This document shows, in pieces, positions 763 through 28,980 of a DNA stretch of 64,000 nt. Under the pieces are notes generated by a model, which ran no database searches, was not told the DNA's origin, and saw nothing but the letters and a program-made list of their open reading frames with translations. The DNA is taken from contig VHDE01000008.1 in the NCBI GenBank assembly GCA_016871515.1, positions 1-64,000 on the forward strand, written 5' to 3'. Position 1 is the stretch's first letter, and every line of letters begins with the position of its first letter. This stretch comes from Verrucomicrobiota bacterium. GTDB lineage: Bacteria > Verrucomicrobiota > Verrucomicrobiia > Limisphaerales > SIBE01. A program made the translations under genes and the position numbers.

Positions 763-3000
763 CTATAGCTTAGCGTCGACTTTCAGCATCTGCTTGACCT
801 GTTCAGGATCGTGAGTCGGCGGCTGACAGGCCGTGCCGGTGCAGAGATAAACGGTGGGCTGGCCTTTATCTAATGGCAACGTCTTGGCAAAAGCCTCGAC
901 CGGGCCTGTATTGCTTAAGACAACTTTGTTCGGTTGATAAACAGCGTGCGCGGCTTTCAACAAATCGCGAGTCAATGCCGTTTGCTTATCGCCGACAACG
1001 ACGACACGTTTCGGTTCTTCGAGCCAATAATCCAAACCCAGCAGAAGATGCGGCACGGCTTGCGGCAGGCGCTGCAAACGATCCGCCAAAAGGCGCAGCG
1101 TCTTTTCCGCGGCTGCTTTCAGATCGGCGCGGTCCGTCGTCGCAGCCAGCTTCAAAATAGCCAGGACCGCGACGGAATTGCCTGATGGCTCGGCGCCGTC
1201 GTAATCTTCTTTGATGCGAAGAATGAGGTCGTTCGAGTTGGCGCCACTTTGCCAGAAGCCGCCTCCTTCGGGATCGTAAAACTTCGCCATCATCGTATCG
1301 GCTAGCGCCAAAGCAAACTCGAGGTGTTTCGATTCCAAAGTGGCTTCGTACAAACTGATCACTCCGGCCAGGAGATTAGCATAACCATCGAGCAGTTGCA
1401 CCGCGTCGCGTTCTCCGTCCCGCCAGCGATGATAAAGCGTTTTTGTTTTGGCGTCCCAGAGTTTGGCCTGCAGAAAGGCCAGGTTCTTCTCGGCAGCGGC
1501 GAGGTATTCGTCATTGCGGAGGACGGCATAAGCGCGCGCGATGGCGCCGAGCATCATGCCGTTCCAGGAAGCCAGCACCTTGTCGTCGAGGTGAGGCCGA
1601 ACGCGTTTGGCGCGTTCGCCGAACATTTTCTTCTTGGCCGAGGCCAGCAACGTTTGTTCGCCCGGAGAAGGTTTTGGATCGACGATGCTCAAGATGTTTT
1701 GGCTGGGCAGTGCATTAGGGTCGCTGTGATCGACGAAGTTTCCTTTCTCAGTGATGCCGAAGTAGCGGACTGCAACATCGAATTCCTGTGATGTCAGGAG
1801 CTTGGCCAGTTCAGCGCGCGTCCAGCAATAAAACTTGCCCTCCTTGCCTTCGCTGTCTGCGTCCTCGGCAGAATAGAATCCGCCTTCGGGATGGGTCATA
1901 TCACGGAGCACGTAGCGAATGATGTCTCGCGATGCGTCGGCGAACCGTGCTTCGCCGCTGATCAGATAAGCGTCGAGATACAGGCTAATCAATTGGGCGT
2001 TGTCATAGAGCATCTTCTCGAAGTGCGGCACAAGCCATTCGGCATCGACAGAATAACGGGCGAACCCGCCGCCGAGTTGATCGTAAATCCCGCCCGCAGC
2101 CATCCGTTCGCAAGTATGGAGAACCATGCGGATCGCATCGCGGTCGTTAAATCGAGTGCCGTAACGCAACAGAAAGGCAGGTTGCGCAGGACGAGGAAAT
2201 TTGGGCGCACCACCGAAACCGCCATGGCGCGGATCATATTCATCTTTGAATTCCTTGGCTGCGTTCTGGAGCAGAGCGGGACCGAGAAGGAGCCCTTGCG
2301 ATTCCTCTTGGCGTGTCAGGTTCGTGAGATGCTCATGCAACTGCGTGGCAGACTTGGTAATGTCCGCGCGGCGATTTCCCCAAAGCTCGGTGATGTGTTG
2401 CAAGACTTGCAGAAAACTCGGCCGCCCGTACTTCTCGACGGGGGGGAAATAGGTGCCCCCATAGAACGGTTTGAGTTCGGGTGTGAGAAACACATTCAGC
2501 GGCCAGCCGCCGCCTTGTCCGATAGCCTGGACGGCGGTCATGTAAATCTTGTCCACGTCCGGCCGCTCTTCACGGTCCACCTTAATGCTGACAAAATGCT
2601 GGTTCAGGAACTCAGCGATCTCGCGGTTTTCGAACGATTCGCGTTCCATGACATGGCACCAGTGACAGGTCGAGTAGCCGATGCTGAGCAGGATCGGTTT
2701 ATTTTCGGCGCGCGCTTTGGAAAAAGCCTGCTCGCCCCACGCGTACCAATCGACGGGATTATGCTGATGCTGGAGCAGATAAGGGGATTTTTCCCGTGCC
2801 AGGCGGTTCGTAAACGAATGCGCTGCGGTGTTGGTTGCCATAGGAACAGGTTGTGAAATCTTGACCTTGGGCGGGGGTGAGGTGCGTTCGCAGGAAGTGC
2901 CAAGAACGGCGATAGTCCCAAGAGCGATTAATTGCCAAAGAAAATTTGGTTCAGGATTCGAGGACACGACGTAACTTAACTGCTGCCTGCCTCCGAGCAA
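763..3000 (-). CDS. DUF255 / thioredoxin-domain protein (YyaL-SSP411 type), probable lipoprotein
   Basis: A 745-residue protein of the YyaL/spermatogenesis-associated-protein-20 family: an N-terminal thioredoxin-like fold followed by an alpha/alpha toroid similar to glycosidases and epimerases. Seen: the family start [18 protein letters not shown] (72-89), the CHWCHVM motif (112-118) in place of the thioredoxin CxxC, and the conserved [11 protein letters not shown] and FYGGTYFPP segments. The first 40 residues include a hydrophobic stretch ending in LGTSC (33-37), which resembles a lipobox, so the product may be exported and lipidated. A start at Met54 would instead give a cytosolic protein of normal length. 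The molecular function of the family is not settled. It stands alone, convergent with the transposase remnant. Confidence 0.9.
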
Positions 3001-3041
3001 GGCAGAATCGCGGTGTTGCGACGAGAGGCCGCAGGTGTGCC

Positions 3042-3172
3042 GCCGACTTGCAGTCTGCCGTATCGCCGATTTTCAATCGGCAGGGTGTTCGCCAGTTACG
3101 GGCGCGCTTTGATTGGCCGGAACCTCTGCAGGTTGAAAACCTGCGATACAGCAGAGTCAAACTCTGCGCTAC
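3042..3172. repeat. Mini-hairpin repeat array, copy 1
   Basis: An intergenic element of about 130 nt made of short self-complementary units, each a 7-bp stem with a 3-nt loop: GCCGATTTTCAATCGGC (3065-3081), GCAGGTTGAAAACCTGC (3128-3144) and GCAGAGTCAAACTCTGC (3151-3167), plus a decayed unit at 3042-3058. Units are joined by TATCGC on the left and GATACA on the right. The right edge is GCGCTAC. The same architecture recurs at 34234-34368 and 37644-37778. Confidence 0.8.
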
Positions 3173-3301
3173 GAGGAAGGCGAATCTTTGGTGGGACCGC
3201 GAAGATGCGCCCGTGTGTTCAGTCGTGACGGAAGGCGCTACGGCCCGCGAGCAGTCACTTTTCCATCGTCAGGAAACGCTGGCTTGGGCTAACTTGACCT
3301 G

Positions 3302-4036
3302 ATGCTGTCTGAGAAGCCATGGAAGCCGGAAGCCGTCCTTCGTTTTTTTCTGGGACTCTTCACGAGTATTTGCCTCGGCGTCTTGGTCGTAAAGTGGCTG
3401 AGCTCTTCGTACTCGCCGTTCGATTTTGATCCTAAAGTCGTCATGCTGGTCATTGGAACGTTCAGTTTTCATGGGATGGTTCTGTTGCTAGCCAACGCAT
3501 TTTTGCGCGAGCACGGGTTGAACTGGGCAGAGGGATTCGGCTTTCGTTCGCCAAGGCGGGGACGGTCGATCTTGCTGGCGACGGTCGTTGGCATAGCGGT
3601 GCTGCCAATTGTGCTATCGCTAGGCCAGGTTTCAGCGAAGATCATGAACTCGTTCGAAATTACGCCCATCCCGCAAGAAACGGTTCAAATGTTACAATCG
3701 GCGCGATCGACGGACCTAACACTCCTCATCGGAGTTTTGTCGGTGTTGGTCGCTCCGTTGGCTGAAGAAGTCCTTTTCCGCGGCATCCTGTACTCGTTCA
3801 TCAAACAATTGGGATTTCCGCGCCTCGCTCTCTGGGGCACTTCTCTCCTCTTTGGTGCCATTCACAACAATGCGATGATTTTTCTGCCGCTGACCTTTCT
3901 GGCCGTTATTCTCACGCTGTTGTACGAGACGACCGATAATTTGCTTGCGCCGATTATCACGCACAGCGTGTTCAACTGCGCGAATTTCTTTTGGATGCTG
4001 TACACGGCCCCAATGAGCAAGTTACACGTGGCATGA
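3302..4036 (+). CDS. CPBP-family intramembrane metalloprotease
   Basis: A 244-residue polytopic membrane protein of the CPBP (CAAX protease and bacteriocin-processing, Abi/Rce1-like) family. Hydrophobic segments lie at about 12-32, 46-66, 90-108, 142-154 and onward. The catalytic signature is complete: EEVLFR (155-160), a histidine in FGAIHNN (His188) and HSVFN (His221). Family members cleave C-terminal to prenyl-type or peptide signals, but bacterial substrates are mostly unknown. The stop overlaps the thiL start (ATGA), so translation is probably coupled and this gene heads the thiL-tsaE-tsaB operon. Confidence 0.88.
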   Translation: MLSEKPWKPEAVLRFFLGLFTSICLGVLVVKWLSSSYSPFDFDPKVVMLVIGTFSFHGMVLLLANAFLREHGLNWAEGFGFRSPRRGRSILLATVVGIAVLPIVLSLGQVSAKIMNSFEITPIPQETVQMLQSARSTDLTLLIGVLSVLVAPLAEEVLFRGILYSFIKQLGFPRLALWGTSLLFGAIHNNAMIFLPLTFLAVILTLLYETTDNLLAPIITHSVFNCANFFWMLYTAPMSKLHVA

Positions 4037-5004
4037 CCGAGTTCGAGCTTATCTCGCGCTTAATTCCATGGCTGCACACCAATCCAACGGTTGTGGCCGG
4101 CGCCGGAGATGATTGTGCGATTTTAGATCTCGGGATGCTGGACGGGCTTCTCTTGCTCAAGACGGACGCCATTGTGGAAGGCGTTCATTTTACGAGAGAG
4201 GCCGGGCCGGACAAGATCGGGCACAAGGCTCTGGCTCGATGCTTAAGCGATGTTGCAGCGATGGCTGGGACGCCGTCGCACGCTTTGGTGACGATTGGTT
4301 TGCCCAAGGATTTCGATCCAGCCTTTGTCGAGGCGATTTACGTCGGTTTGAATCGTCTGGCCAAACGCTACGATGTGGCGGTGGCAGGCGGTGAAACCAC
4401 GCTGAATCCGGAACGCATCTTTATCTCGGTCAGTGTGCTGGGCAAAGTGGCCCGAGGAAAGTATGTGTTGCGTTCCGGTGCGAAACCCTGCGACGCCATC
4501 TTTGTGACGGGCGAACTGGGAGGGTCGTTATCCGGGAAACACCTGGAGTTTGAACCGAGGGTTGCGGAAGGACGCTGGCTCGCCGAGCACTTCGCGATTC
4601 ATTCGATGATCGATGTCAGTGATGGGCTGGCGGGCGACTTGCGTCACTTGCTTGGGACGAGAGAACTCGGCGCGGAACTGCTTGCTTCGGCCATACCGAT
4701 CAGCCGAGCCGCCCGCAACAAGAGCAAAGGCATACGGATAGACGCAGGCGATGGAGTCTTGTCCGCGCACGCCGCGGGCAGCAAACCCGCGCTCCTTGCC
4801 GCGTTGACCGATGGGGAAGATTTTGAACTTCTCTTTACAGTGGCTAGCCAAGACGCGGTGACTCTGCTGGATGCGTGGAGGAGACATTTTCCGGAGTTGC
4901 GGTTGAGTTGCATTGGAAAGATTCTTTCAGAGCCGGGAGTGTTTCTAAAAGACAAGGAAGGCGTTCGCTCGCTCGTCGCACATGGCTACGTTCATTTCGC
5001 ATAG
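4033..5004 (+). CDS. thiL: Thiamine-monophosphate kinase
   Basis: ThiL phosphorylates thiamine monophosphate with ATP to give thiamine pyrophosphate, the last step of cofactor synthesis. The 323-residue product begins MTEFELISRLIPWL, the normal ThiL N-terminus, and carries GAGDDCAILD (about 22-31), the metal/nucleotide-binding Asp motif, then VEGVHFTRE and MIDVSDGLAGDLRHL. A longer open frame exists upstream, but the ATG at 4033 overlaps the previous stop as ATGA and matches family length, so I prefer it. The 3' end overlaps tsaE by 23 bases. The same family superfold includes AIR synthetases; the N-terminal motif makes ThiL the clear choice. Confidence 0.93.
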   Translation: MTEFELISRLIPWLHTNPTVVAGAGDDCAILDLGMLDGLLLLKTDAIVEGVHFTREAGPDKIGHKALARCLSDVAAMAGTPSHALVTIGLPKDFDPAFVEAIYVGLNRLAKRYDVAVAGGETTLNPERIFISVSVLGKVARGKYVLRSGAKPCDAIFVTGELGGSLSGKHLEFEPRVAEGRWLAEHFAIHSMIDVSDGLAGDLRHLLGTRELGAELLASAIPISRAARNKSKGIRIDAGDGVLSAHAAGSKPALLAALTDGEDFELLFTVASQDAVTLLDAWRRHFPELRLSCIGKILSEPGVFLKDKEGVRSLVAHGYVHFA

Positions 5005-25419: not shown

Positions 25420-28400
25420 GTGCAAGTTCGCTTTCTGCTCGGGCCGTCAGGGACAGGCAAGACGTTCCGTTGTTTGACGGAAATACGGTCGGCTTTGTTA
25501 GCTTCTCCTGCGGGACCGCCGCTGGTTTTCCTGGCCCCAAAACAAGCGACTTTTCAATTGGAACGACAGTTGCTCGCCGATTCAAGGGTCCCGGGCTACA
25601 CGCGTTTGCAGATACTTTCGTTTGATCAGCTCGCCGAATTGATCCTTTCCGGATTCCAACAGAGCCCCGTCCGATTGCTGAACGAAGATGGGCGCCTCAT
25701 GGTGTTGCGCGCGCTGCTGGCGCAGAAACGAAACGAACTGAAACTGTTCCGATCCACGGCCCGTTTGCGCGGTTTTGCCCAGCAACTCAGCGCGGCCCTT
25801 CGAGATATTCAACGCTCGCAAGTTCCGCCGAGCGAACTGATCGCACTCGCCGCAAAAATCGGGTCTGAAACAGCTTTAGGTTGCAAGCTACAGGACGTCG
25901 CCACGATGCTTTCGGCGTACCTGGACTGGCTGCGTGAACATCATTTGCATGACCAGGATTTGCTGGTTGATCTCGCCGCCGAGGCTTTGTCCGAATCCAT
26001 GGGAGTGCGAACAGCTTCGCCTAAGCCTTTCTATCAAGCGAAGGAAAGCGCTAGGACCAATGGTCCCGCGCCGCGGCGCCACTTCAGAACATTGCACATT
26101 GCCGGCCTATGGTTTGACGGTTTTGCCGAATTGGCTGCGCAAGAAATAGCCCTCCTCACGGCGTTGCTCCCCTGTTGTGATCGCGCCACGCTCGCGTTTA
26201 ACCTTGATCGCGAATCGTTGAGCGGTGTCTCATGGCTTTCCACCTGGTCCGCAGTCGGGCGAACCTTTCAAAAACTTCAACAGCGGCTGGCCGAACAACC
26301 GGACACCGACGTGATTGTCGAATGGCTGGATCGTGCGGAGGGCCAGGGCCGTTTTCGAGAGAATCCCATCCTTCGACATTTGGAAGAAAATTGGGCGCAT
26401 CCAAAATCTTTTGACAACGCGATGGGAGCGCGGACTGCCAAGTCCGCGAGCGAAACGGTTGAAACAGCCAAAACGCCCGCGGACGCGGCAGTCCGTGCGC
26501 CCGGCGCCGTGTCCAGTCATCCGGCAGAATTGGCGGAAACGCTCCGTGCAGCCATTTGTGCGAATCCCGAAGCAGAAGCCACGCTGGCCGCGCGCGAAAT
26601 CCTGAGATTTGTTCGTTCGGGCGGACGGTATCGAGATGTGGCCGTTGTCGTTCGCGAACTGGAAAATTATTACGAACCCGTCCGCCGTATTTTGGCGCGT
26701 TACGGAATCCCATTTTTCCTCGATCGGCGCGAGCCAGTCGGACGCCATCCCTTGGCTGAACTGATTCGGAGCGCGCTTCGGACAATTGCGCTCCATTGGC
26801 AGCATGAGGATTGGTTTGGCGCATTGAAAACGGGTCTCGTGCATAATGAGGAAACAGAGATTGATTTCCTCGAGAATGAGGCCCTGGCGCGAGGCTGGAA
26901 AGGGGAGGATTGGTTTGGGCCGCTGACAATTAAAGACGATCCGCGATTGGCCGACCGGATTGAGAAGTTGCGAATTAAGTTGCTTGCTCCATTTCAGGAA
27001 CTGATGGAGGCACTGGGCGTTCAAGCCAACTTGGGCGCTGCCGAGAGCAGAACGAGTGCTGGGATCAATGGCAATGCACTGGCGGATGCCCTCCGCATTT
27101 TTTGGCGGCGTCTGAAGATCGGAGAACAAATGGCCGAATTGAGCACGGGCTCCGGCAATCCCATGCATGTCACGCTCTGGCGGCAAATGCAGGAGTGGCT
27201 CGATAACCTCACTTTGGCCTTTTCTTCCGAAACGCTCACCTTGCGCGAATGGCTGCCCATTCTGGAGGCCGGCTTGGCCAGCCAAACCGTTGGGGTTATC
27301 CCTCCGGCGTTGGACCAGGTTCTCGTCGGCGCGATTGACCGTTCCCGCAATCCCGATCTCAAACTCGCCATCATTTTGGGAATGAACGAATCGGTTTTTC
27401 CGGCCGCACCCACAGGTTCAGCTCTGCTGACAGATGCTGAACGGGAACAACTTTCCCAACTCGGCGTCGAACTCGGTCAGACCGTCCGGAGCAGGCTGGC
27501 TCAGGAACATTACTTGGGATACATTGCCTGCACTCGCTCCCGGCAGCGGCTCGTCCTTACCTGCGCCAGACGCGACGACAATGAGAACGCTTTGAATCCG
27601 TCGCCATTCCTCGCGCATTTGCGGCGTCTTTTCCCGTCGTTGCAGATTGAGAGTTACGCATCCGGATTCTCCTGGATCGAAAGCGAGCATGTTTGCGAGT
27701 TGGCTGGCCCGCTCTGGCGGCGGGCAGCGGACGAACCGGCGGAAACTGAACCGTTCGCCTCGCTCATCAAGCTTCCGGCTTTTGAACATCTCTGGAAACG
27801 ACTTGAACATTTGCCAAGGGATGCTGGAGGGATCGGTCAGTCTCTTTCGCCCGTCTTGGCGGAACGGCTTTACGGCGCCGTGCTGCGAACGTCCGTAAGC
27901 GGACTCGAAGAGTTCGCCGCTTGTCCGTTCAAATTCTTTGTCAGTTCCGGTTTGAAGGCTAAGGAGCGCCAGCGGTTTGAATTGGACGCGCGTGAGCAAG
28001 GAAGCTTTCAGCATGAAATCCTGGCGCGTTTTCACCGGCAATTGCGGACGGAGGGCAAACGTTGGCGAGAACTCACCCCGGACGAGGCGCGCGAACGCAT
28101 CGGCCAAATTGCCGAGGAAATTATCCCCAACTACCGCGATGGGTTGCTTCAAGCGAGCGGCCAAGCCAATTTTGCGGCCCGCAGTCTAACCGCGTCGCTG
28201 CAAAGTTTCATCCATACGATTATCGGTTGGATGGCCCAGTATCAGTTCGATCCTTACGCTGTCGAACTGGCGTTCGGCATCGAGGAGAAGCCGCTGCCCG
28301 CTTGGGATTTGGACTTGGGCAAAGGACATTCCCTTTCATTGCGAGGCAAGATCGACCGCGTCGATTTATGGCGGCGGCCTGAAGCGGACGAAGCGTTTTG

Positions 28401-28980
28401 CGTGGTCATCGACTATAAATCGAGCGCCCGAAAGCTTGATCCGCTTCTGCTGGCGCATGGCATTCAACTGCAGTTGCCGGCCTATTTAAACGTCTTGCGC
28501 GGCCTTTCCAATCCGCGCTCGATTTTTGGAGTTGGCCGGCTGATTCCGGCGGGCGTCTTCTTTGTCAACCTGCGCGGCGCTTACGACGGGGCCAAAACAC
28601 GGCAGGAAGTGTTCGAACGCTTCGCCGACGCACGCAAATCCGCCTACCGCCATGCAGGCCGGTTTGATGCGGAATTGCGGACTAAGCTCGACTCGCGTGC
28701 CGGGGTCGATGAGGGCGATCAGTTTAGTTACCGGCTTGCCGGCAATGGCGCCATCCACGGCTCATGCCGCGAACCGATGACAGCACACGACTTCGCGACG
28801 ATGCTTGACGCGGTCGAAGGCCATCTGCGCCGGATGGGGCAGGCGATCTACGCGGGCGAAGCAAAACCGGACCCGTACCGCAAGGGCTTTGATTTGCCCT
28901 GTCAGAGATGCGTTTATCAGTCTATCTGCCGCATTGATCCGTGGACGCATTCCTACCGGGTCTTGCGAAAGATTGGGTAG
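25420..28980 (+). CDS. addB: AddB-like ATP-dependent nuclease/helicase subunit B
   Basis: A 1186-residue protein matching the AddB subunit of the AddAB double-strand-break resection enzyme. Walker A GPSGTGKT (8-15) lies at the N-terminus, an inactivated-helicase middle includes VGAIDRSRNPDLKLAIILGM, and the C-terminal PD-(D/E)xK nuclease has VVIDYKS and QLQLPAYL. Four Fe-S cysteines are visible: Cys835 (AACPFKFF) and CQRCVYQSIC (Cys1161, 1164, 1170). The start is GTG. About 30 residues at 336-361 (MGARTAKSAS... to ...AAVRAPG) are encoded by an inserted palindrome and look like a linker. addA is not adjacent within the window. Confidence 0.85.
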   Translation: MQVRFLLGPSGTGKTFRCLTEIRSALLASPAGPPLVFLAPKQATFQLERQLLADSRVPGYTRLQILSFDQLAELILSGFQQSPVRLLNEDGRLMVLRALLAQKRNELKLFRSTARLRGFAQQLSAALRDIQRSQVPPSELIALAAKIGSETALGCKLQDVATMLSAYLDWLREHHLHDQDLLVDLAAEALSESMGVRTASPKPFYQAKESARTNGPAPRRHFRTLHIAGLWFDGFAELAAQEIALLTALLPCCDRATLAFNLDRESLSGVSWLSTWSAVGRTFQKLQQRLAEQPDTDVIVEWLDRAEGQGRFRENPILRHLEENWAHPKSFDNAMGARTAKSASETVETAKTPADAAVRAPGAVSSHPAELAETLRAAICANPEAEATLAAREILRFVRSGGRYRDVAVVVRELENYYEPVRRILARYGIPFFLDRREPVGRHPLAELIRSALRTIALHWQHEDWFGALKTGLVHNEETEIDFLENEALARGWKGEDWFGPLTIKDDPRLADRIEKLRIKLLAPFQELMEALGVQANLGAAESRTSAGINGNALADALRIFWRRLKIGEQMAELSTGSGNPMHVTLWRQMQEWLDNLTLAFSSETLTLREWLPILEAGLASQTVGVIPPALDQVLVGAIDRSRNPDLKLAIILGMNESVFPAAPTGSALLTDAEREQLSQLGVELGQTVRSRLAQEHYLGYIACTRSRQRLVLTCARRDDNENALNPSPFLAHLRRLFPSLQIESYASGFSWIESEHVCELAGPLWRRAADEPAETEPFASLIKLPAFEHLWKRLEHLPRDAGGIGQSLSPVLAERLYGAVLRTSVSGLEEFAACPFKFFVSSGLKAKERQRFELDAREQGSFQHEILARFHRQLRTEGKRWRELTPDEARERIGQIAEEIIPNYRDGLLQASGQANFAARSLTASLQSFIHTIIGWMAQYQFDPYAVELAFGIEEKPLPAWDLDLGKGHSLSLRGKIDRVDLWRRPEADEAFCVVIDYKSSARKLDPLLLAHGIQLQLPAYLNVLRGLSNPRSIFGVGRLIPAGVFFVNLRGAYDGAKTRQEVFERFADARKSAYRHAGRFDAELRTKLDSRAGVDEGDQFSYRLAGNGAIHGSCREPMTAHDFATMLDAVEGHLRRMGQAIYAGEAKPDPYRKGFDLPCQRCVYQSICRIDPWTHSYRVLRKIG
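26424..26502. repeat. Palindromic element inserted in frame within addB (family F)
   Basis: Arms at 26424-26448 and 26478-26502 are inverted complements at 21 of 25 positions, built on CGCGGACTGCC / GGCAGTCCG, with a 29-nt loop. The 79-base unit keeps the addB frame open and codes for a low-complexity Ala/Ser/Thr/Lys stretch. Confidence 0.75.

Follow-up and report, generated by a model that had tools for sequence, protein, structure and literature searches.

The palindromic segment within addB is very probably one copy of a dispersed, mobile family of REP-like palindromes that has been tolerated in frame in a linker of the encoded protein. The host gene lies in the window, i.e. the whole 64,000-nucleotide stretch of DNA that was analysed. 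The AddB identity of the ORF is given by matches to the Pfam models PF21445 and PF12705, its TIGR02773 score of 545 bits being under the equivalog cut-off of 904. Moreover, its product matches the solved AddB of PDB entry 3u44 chain B, presumably the B. subtilis protein, with an E value of 1e-98. The partner gene addA is found intact on a separate contig of the same genome (G000:C46), where a frame of 1280 aa scores 763 bits and thereby exceeds the TIGR02785 cut-off. Judging from the intact ORF together with an intact addA, AddB is presumably functional. The features of the locus are compiled in Table 1.

Table 1. The addB gene, the palindromic element and its constituent parts, in positions of the window.
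Feature	Position	Strand	Basis and remarks
addB (helicase-exonuclease AddAB subunit B)	25420..28980	+	intact ORF, 1186 aa, GTG start
Extended palindromic element including outer arms, 101 bp	26413..26513	.	repeat search
Element core, head-to-head dimer of REP-like unit	26424..26502	.	covariance-model match 26424-26503, 80.6 bits
REP-like unit 1	26425..26448	+	sequence; unit consensus from 54 copies; read as GARTAKSA
Unit 1, tag GGAG	26425..26428		
Unit 1, stem CGCGGAC	26429..26435		
Unit 1, loop TGCCAA	26436..26441		
Unit 1, stem GTCCGCG	26442..26448		
Spacer between units, 29 nt	26449..26477	.	sequence; read as SETVETAKTP
REP-like unit 2, inverted	26478..26501	-	sequence; read as ADAAVRAP

The original prediction described a palindrome of 79 bases at 26424-26502, paired at 21 of 25 arm positions and lying in frame in addB at about residues 336-361. 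This description was confirmed with respect to the arms (26424-26448 and 26478-26502) and the reading frame, and the palindrome corresponds to residues 335-361 of AddB, which read GARTAKSASETVETAKTPADAAVRAP. An inverted-repeat search stretches it further, to arms of 40 nt at 26413-26452 and 26474-26513 that are 78% complementary. Over the 25-nt arm, four positions of unit 2 deviate from an exact inverted match to unit 1. Folded as RNA, the element reaches -57.0 kcal/mol as compared to -28.7 +/- 3.0 for 200 dinucleotide shuffles (z -9.56), none of which folds as stably.

The palindrome is not due to chance, since the same genome contains dispersed matches to it: a 119-base query returned 41 BLAST matches across the 5.73 Mb, and a covariance model gave at least 109 hits on both strands. 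The model was built from eight copies and 150 of 1912 candidates were scored, so that the model's hit count and the copy counts derived from it are lower bounds. At least 54 of the copies in this genome are two-armed, a figure that leaves out four one-armed hits (L109-L112) as well as L098, and all 54 constitute inward-facing pairs with the tag outside. Non-coding copies, which answer the check for intergenic copies that the original prediction had proposed, do exist: 43 of the 54 lie outside sizeable ORFs, defined here as ORFs of 150 aa or more with at least 30 aa on either side of the copy. The copy in addB is the only one in the window. The unit consensus derived from the 54 copies comprises 24 nt with a GGAG tag, a 7-bp stem (CGCGGAC/GTCCGCG) and a 6-nt loop, and the units of a dimer are spaced by about 20-30 nt. 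Hence, the family displays the general hallmarks of REPs, namely a 24-nt stem-loop unit, many dispersed and mainly non-coding copies, and head-to-head dimers with a spacer. Two main subfamilies are distinguished by the loop (CGCCGA-like versus AGCCTT-like) and by longer outer arms.

Such outer arms extend beyond the core in many copies of the window's genome. Outward complementarity at the first three positions past the core amounts to 0.67-0.71 in this genome versus 0.28-0.40 in shuffled pairs, and it is weaker in other genomes (based on 52 copies of this genome and 190 from others, out of 246). An interpretation of the inverted-complementary flanks as inverted target duplications was abandoned, as many of them represent variants of the subfamily outer arms (CAGCAATTCTCATTATGG..., TGAACCGTACG...). 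The matching flanks of some copies fit neither outer-arm consensus, and in own copies such as L108, L008 and L002 the two flanks of an individual copy show inverted complementarity for about 10-15 nt also where they deviate from the subfamily consensus. Complementary flanks of this off-consensus kind suggest arm-to-arm correction by strand switching. As a separate observation, the lineage harbours another large repeat family: in L004 (G000:C106:4054-7137), residues of about 55-100 in the stop-to-stop ORF upstream of MetH correspond to a translated stretch for which dozens of scattered matches exist in G003 and in the genome of the window, many of them containing an internal stop.

Insertion into addB is indicated by the AddB proteins of relatives. 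Neither GART nor VRAP occurs in any of the 29 proteins examined, which were taken from 69 relatives with an AddB match and include both genomes of the same genus (G001 and G002). In the two same-genus proteins (70 and 69% identical) the corresponding stretch comprises 19 residues versus 50 in the window's AddB, and both genomes are devoid of covariance-model hits. The net gain amounts to 31 residues or 93 nt and is also seen as a gap in the DNA alignment, with insertion point and size being approximate because the nearest empty sites belong to proteins of only about 70% identity. The notion of a tolerated insertion that is missing from relatives is thereby upheld, given that 0/29 carry the motif and that the same-genus linker is 31 residues shorter. 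The accompanying idea that the element makes a linker holds in part only: it lengthened an existing linker and did not create one. Over the same alignment span, the linker of relatives varies between 17 and 49 residues, and the element thus entered a place that was already tolerant. In the solved AddB (3u44 chain B), the linker at the corresponding place is short. An AlphaFold model based on an 18-sequence alignment (mean pLDDT 78.9, pTM 0.56) assigns pLDDT values below 50 to residues 340-366, as would be expected of a disordered loop. A second stretch of AddB, residues of about 192-222 (window positions 25990-26100), is likewise longer than in the same-genus relatives and features low pLDDT at 198-203 and 206-223; it is single-copy in the genome, which ruled it out as another repeat insertion.

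The addB gene is not the only one with such an insertion: a sister copy is present in metH of this genome. It encodes MGARTAESASETLEETNENADSAVRAP, in the same frame as the MGARTAKSASETVETAKTPADAAVRAP of AddB, and the two peptides are nearly identical. In MetH, the copy separates the S-methyl_trans domain (131-462) from the Pterin_bind domain (542-779), and this site is empty in seven of the nine other genomes aligned (G001, G006, G026, G047, G074, G082 and G089). The MetH proteins of the remaining two, G003 (L144/L155) and G017 (L143), are also extended at this junction of domains, by unrelated insertions of about 80 and 25 aa, which marks the junction as a recurrent landing place.

To survey further hosts, 246 unique dimers (209 + 37) were collected and 45 copy-spanning ORFs besides AddB were scanned against Pfam. 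A copy was counted as in-gene when domains were present on both sides of it, when it lay inside a matched domain or, for an MTS methyltransferase, when conserved gene sequence resumed past the insert. This applied to 14 of the 45 ORFs, whereas in the remainder Pfam matched either nothing or a domain on just one side. Together with AddB, 15 in-gene copies were obtained across genomes, which correspond to about 12 events if same-gene pairs are treated as one. Besides AddB and MetH, the hosts are a PQQ-malectin protein in two genomes (L261, L256), PSCyt2/PSD1 proteins (L140, L170), an AMP-binding protein (L125), a GH106 protein (L175), an M56 peptidase in two genomes (L257, L341; the domain appears in two stretches, one presumably on each side) and an SDR protein (L324), all according to Pfam. 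MnmE (L344) and PheT (L346) were named from their Pfam domain sets, and the MTS-type methyltransferase, again in two genomes (L117, L328), was recognised by conserved flanking gene sequence. A preference for DNA-repair genes was considered and dropped, since the in-gene set is mixed and AddB is its sole recombination gene among about 12 events. In L230, an ORF for a DNA methylase (1362-4370, minus strand), two copies flank the N6_N4_Mtase domain, one on each side and both in the GART/VRAP frame; they were left out of the 15, as each has a domain on one side only.

The in-gene copies share a preferred reading frame. All 15 have the downstream arm in the ADxxVRAP frame, and 12 of them, or 10 of 12 events, also have the upstream arm in the GARTxxSA frame, the exceptions being the PheT and MTS methyltransferase copies. 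For the 10 of 12 upstream-arm events, the binomial P is 5e-4 against an expectation of 1/3, in a test that was devised after the data had been seen, that includes the index case AddB and that relies on Pfam for its in-gene calls. Without the Pfam filter, ORF rows having 100 aa or more on either side of the copy split 26/15/15 over the three frames, a weaker bias, which stands out clearly in the Pfam-supported set only. The three frames of the element are free of stops in 84, 83 and 81% of 209 dimers, and open in 83, 81 and 80% of the 162 dimers not spanned by a large ORF. As they are about equally open, stop codons do not explain the bias, which could arise from selection on the peptide or from a fixed insertion phase.

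Beyond the window's genome, the element is patchy across the order and also present in other phyla. The covariance model hit 49 of 196 genomes searched, i.e. 48 relatives and the window's own, in a search with stricter filters in which weak copies are lost. In addition, the exact two-armed pattern was found in at least 107 stretches of a named genome collection. The matches listed include Limisphaerales, Pedosphaera, Opitutaceae and other Verrucomicrobia, a Planctomycetota MAG rich in copies, and furthermore Rhodospirillales, Labrys, Reyranella, Caulobacteraceae, Myxococcales, Deltaproteobacteria and Acidobacteria. Cultivated carriers of the pattern include Labrys sp. WJW and Reyranella soli.

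With respect to mobilisation, the window's genome contains five Y1_Tnp (RAYT-type) loci, none of which has a clear element copy beside it, and only two of 30 such loci in element-bearing relatives have a near-perfect unit, at a distance of some hundreds of bases. Y1_Tnp is present in 14 of 14 element-bearing versus 13 of 14 element-free relatives, so that co-occurrence is uninformative. RAYT/Y1_Tnp was therefore set aside as a mobiliser on the absence of systematic flanking copies (5 own and 30 other loci) and on its equal frequency in element-free relatives. Around the 35 Y1_Tnp loci, no autonomous element, transposase or parent IS tied to the family was found. No target-site duplication of at least 5 nt stands out either: direct repeats of 5 or 6 nt do not exceed the shuffled range in own and other genomes, and only among own copies do those of 4 nt surpass it slightly. 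The missing association with a transposase and the missing target-site duplication would both agree with a spread that involves no transposition and no dedicated enzyme but proceeds by recombination or template switching, in the sense of gene conversion between ectopic palindromes; the outer flanks, inverted-complementary copy by copy, are likewise what strand switching at palindromes would yield. Conversion, however, requires prior homology at the target, of which there is none in the empty addB and metH sites, and the broad dispersal favours insertion, which renders such a spread unlikely, albeit worth serious consideration.

It is rather improbable that the hairpin was selected for a role as nucleic acid inside addB, be it as an attenuator, an mRNA-stability hairpin or a protein site of the gyrase/IHF kind. 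Roles of this type have been proposed for REPs elsewhere (PMC3733652), and a hairpin of -57 kcal/mol is very stable; on the other hand, the element is found in one addB only among those examined, its arms have decayed to 21/25 pairs, it is placed within an ORF where translation would unfold the hairpin, and no Rfam family comes near its gathering score (best 25 bits versus 89). An origin of the segment by normal indels, as an ordinary linker of low-complexity Ala/Ser/Thr/Lys composition whose palindromy is a by-product of that composition, hardly deserves credence: the variable length and composition of the AddB linker among relatives (17 to 49 residues) accommodates it, but the fold z of -9.6, the recurrence of the same 80-nt sequence at dozens of non-coding sites and the near-identical peptide in MetH already refute it.

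Insertion of a mobile REP-like copy thus remains the favoured explanation, and its course may be sketched as follows. In the lineage of this species, the element would have entered a linker that was already present and variable, and that joins the first helicase-like domain to the conserved block following it, thereby adding a net 93 nt (31 residues) to addB. The copy may have persisted as its length and phase left the frame open, and also by virtue of the peptide GARTAKSA-SETVETAKTP-ADAAVRAP, which is hydrophilic and probably disordered and with which AddB would still work. Selection would purge insertions that are out of frame or within a fold, so that the surviving copies would be mostly intergenic, with a few located in linkers or surface loops, predominantly in one 'protein-safe' frame. 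The mover may, as a leading guess, be a RAYT/Y1 transposase that acts in trans. A broader view can be put forward tentatively, with the odds somewhat against it: a distinct GGAG-tagged REP family of Verrucomicrobiota and other phyla might recurrently supply unrelated proteins with a module of GARTxxSA, about 10 residues and ADxxVRAP, either by a fixed coding phase of insertion or because the repeat is shaped such that one frame is protein-compatible, and would thereby constitute a mobile linker cassette entering housekeeping proteins at loops and domain junctions.

The addB copy provides a clean case of a non-coding repeat becoming protein, with empty sites, non-coding sister copies and a second gene carrying the same peptide. 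Moreover, it shows that a repeat family beyond the two described REP tag classes can likewise place palindromes in frame in repair and core genes, and the strong frame preference offers a numerical lead by which a fixed insertion phase could be separated from selection on the peptide. A prior description of the GGAG-tagged family or of its single preferred coding frame was not found in a limited literature search, in which Di Nocera et al. (2013) was the sole relevant find for the repeat in Verrucomicrobiota/Planctomycetes, with other or subscription papers being possible. In Rfam, no family approaches its gathering score for the element.

REPs consist of a tag and a stem-loop and occur mostly as head-to-head dimers, of which in-frame intragenic ones encode 20-30 aa (Di Nocera et al. 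2013, PMC3733652). Many intragenic dimers reside in replication and repair genes, recBCD among them, and Opitutus terrae of the Verrucomicrobia is richest in intragenic GTAG copies (PMC3733652). The present element resembles these dimers in its unpaired 4-nt tag, the head-to-head arrangement with a spacer, the intergenic bulk accompanied by in-frame copies, and the occasional embedding of dimers within longer palindromes (PMC3733652). It differs from GTAG REPs in that GGAG, the tag of the consensus and of most own copies, is outside the variants stated there (GYAG, GYRG, GTRG, GTMG and GTGG), and in that RAYT genes flanked by the repeat, as in GTAG REPs, were not encountered at 35 Y1_Tnp loci. 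CGTC REPs, which have been reported without a transposase, feature a CGTC tag, an 8-9 bp stem starting with AT, a 4-5 nt loop and a CCA-like tail (PMC3733652), in contrast to the GGAG tag, the GC-rich 7-bp stem and the 6-nt loop of the element described here.

Similar behaviour is known from the Rickettsia palindromic elements (RPEs), whose fusions are summarised in a MITE review (PMC10969869). These, too, are in-frame palindromes in housekeeping genes that are left unbroken, and PheT and a recB-family exonuclease, both among the R. japonica genes with RPE-4/6/7 (PMC3767692), have counterparts among the hosts reported here (PMC3767692, PMC10969869). The occupation of one site by different elements in orthologues is a further likeness, and RPE-like behaviour is seen here in the in-frame AddB and MetH insertions, the empty orthologous sites and the low-confidence loop. 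Yet RPEs are treated as a Rickettsia phenomenon in these two sources, and the likeness described here concerns the behaviour of insertion; RPE-4 and RPE-6 are CGTC REPs (PMC3733652), unlike the element in addB, which is not CGTC-tagged. Furthermore, orthologues of R. japonica mostly share an RPE at the same locus (PMC3767692), whereas the AddB copy is confined to one genome of those examined. MITEs with translational fusions are also short, non-autonomous palindromic elements that add residues to an ORF (PMC10969869), but here there is no target-site duplication of at least 5 nt and no parent IS was found. Taken together, the phenomenon and even the class of gene have precedent in the 'protein-coding palindrome' biology of the REP/RPE type, of which the addB element is a further instance and not a new system.
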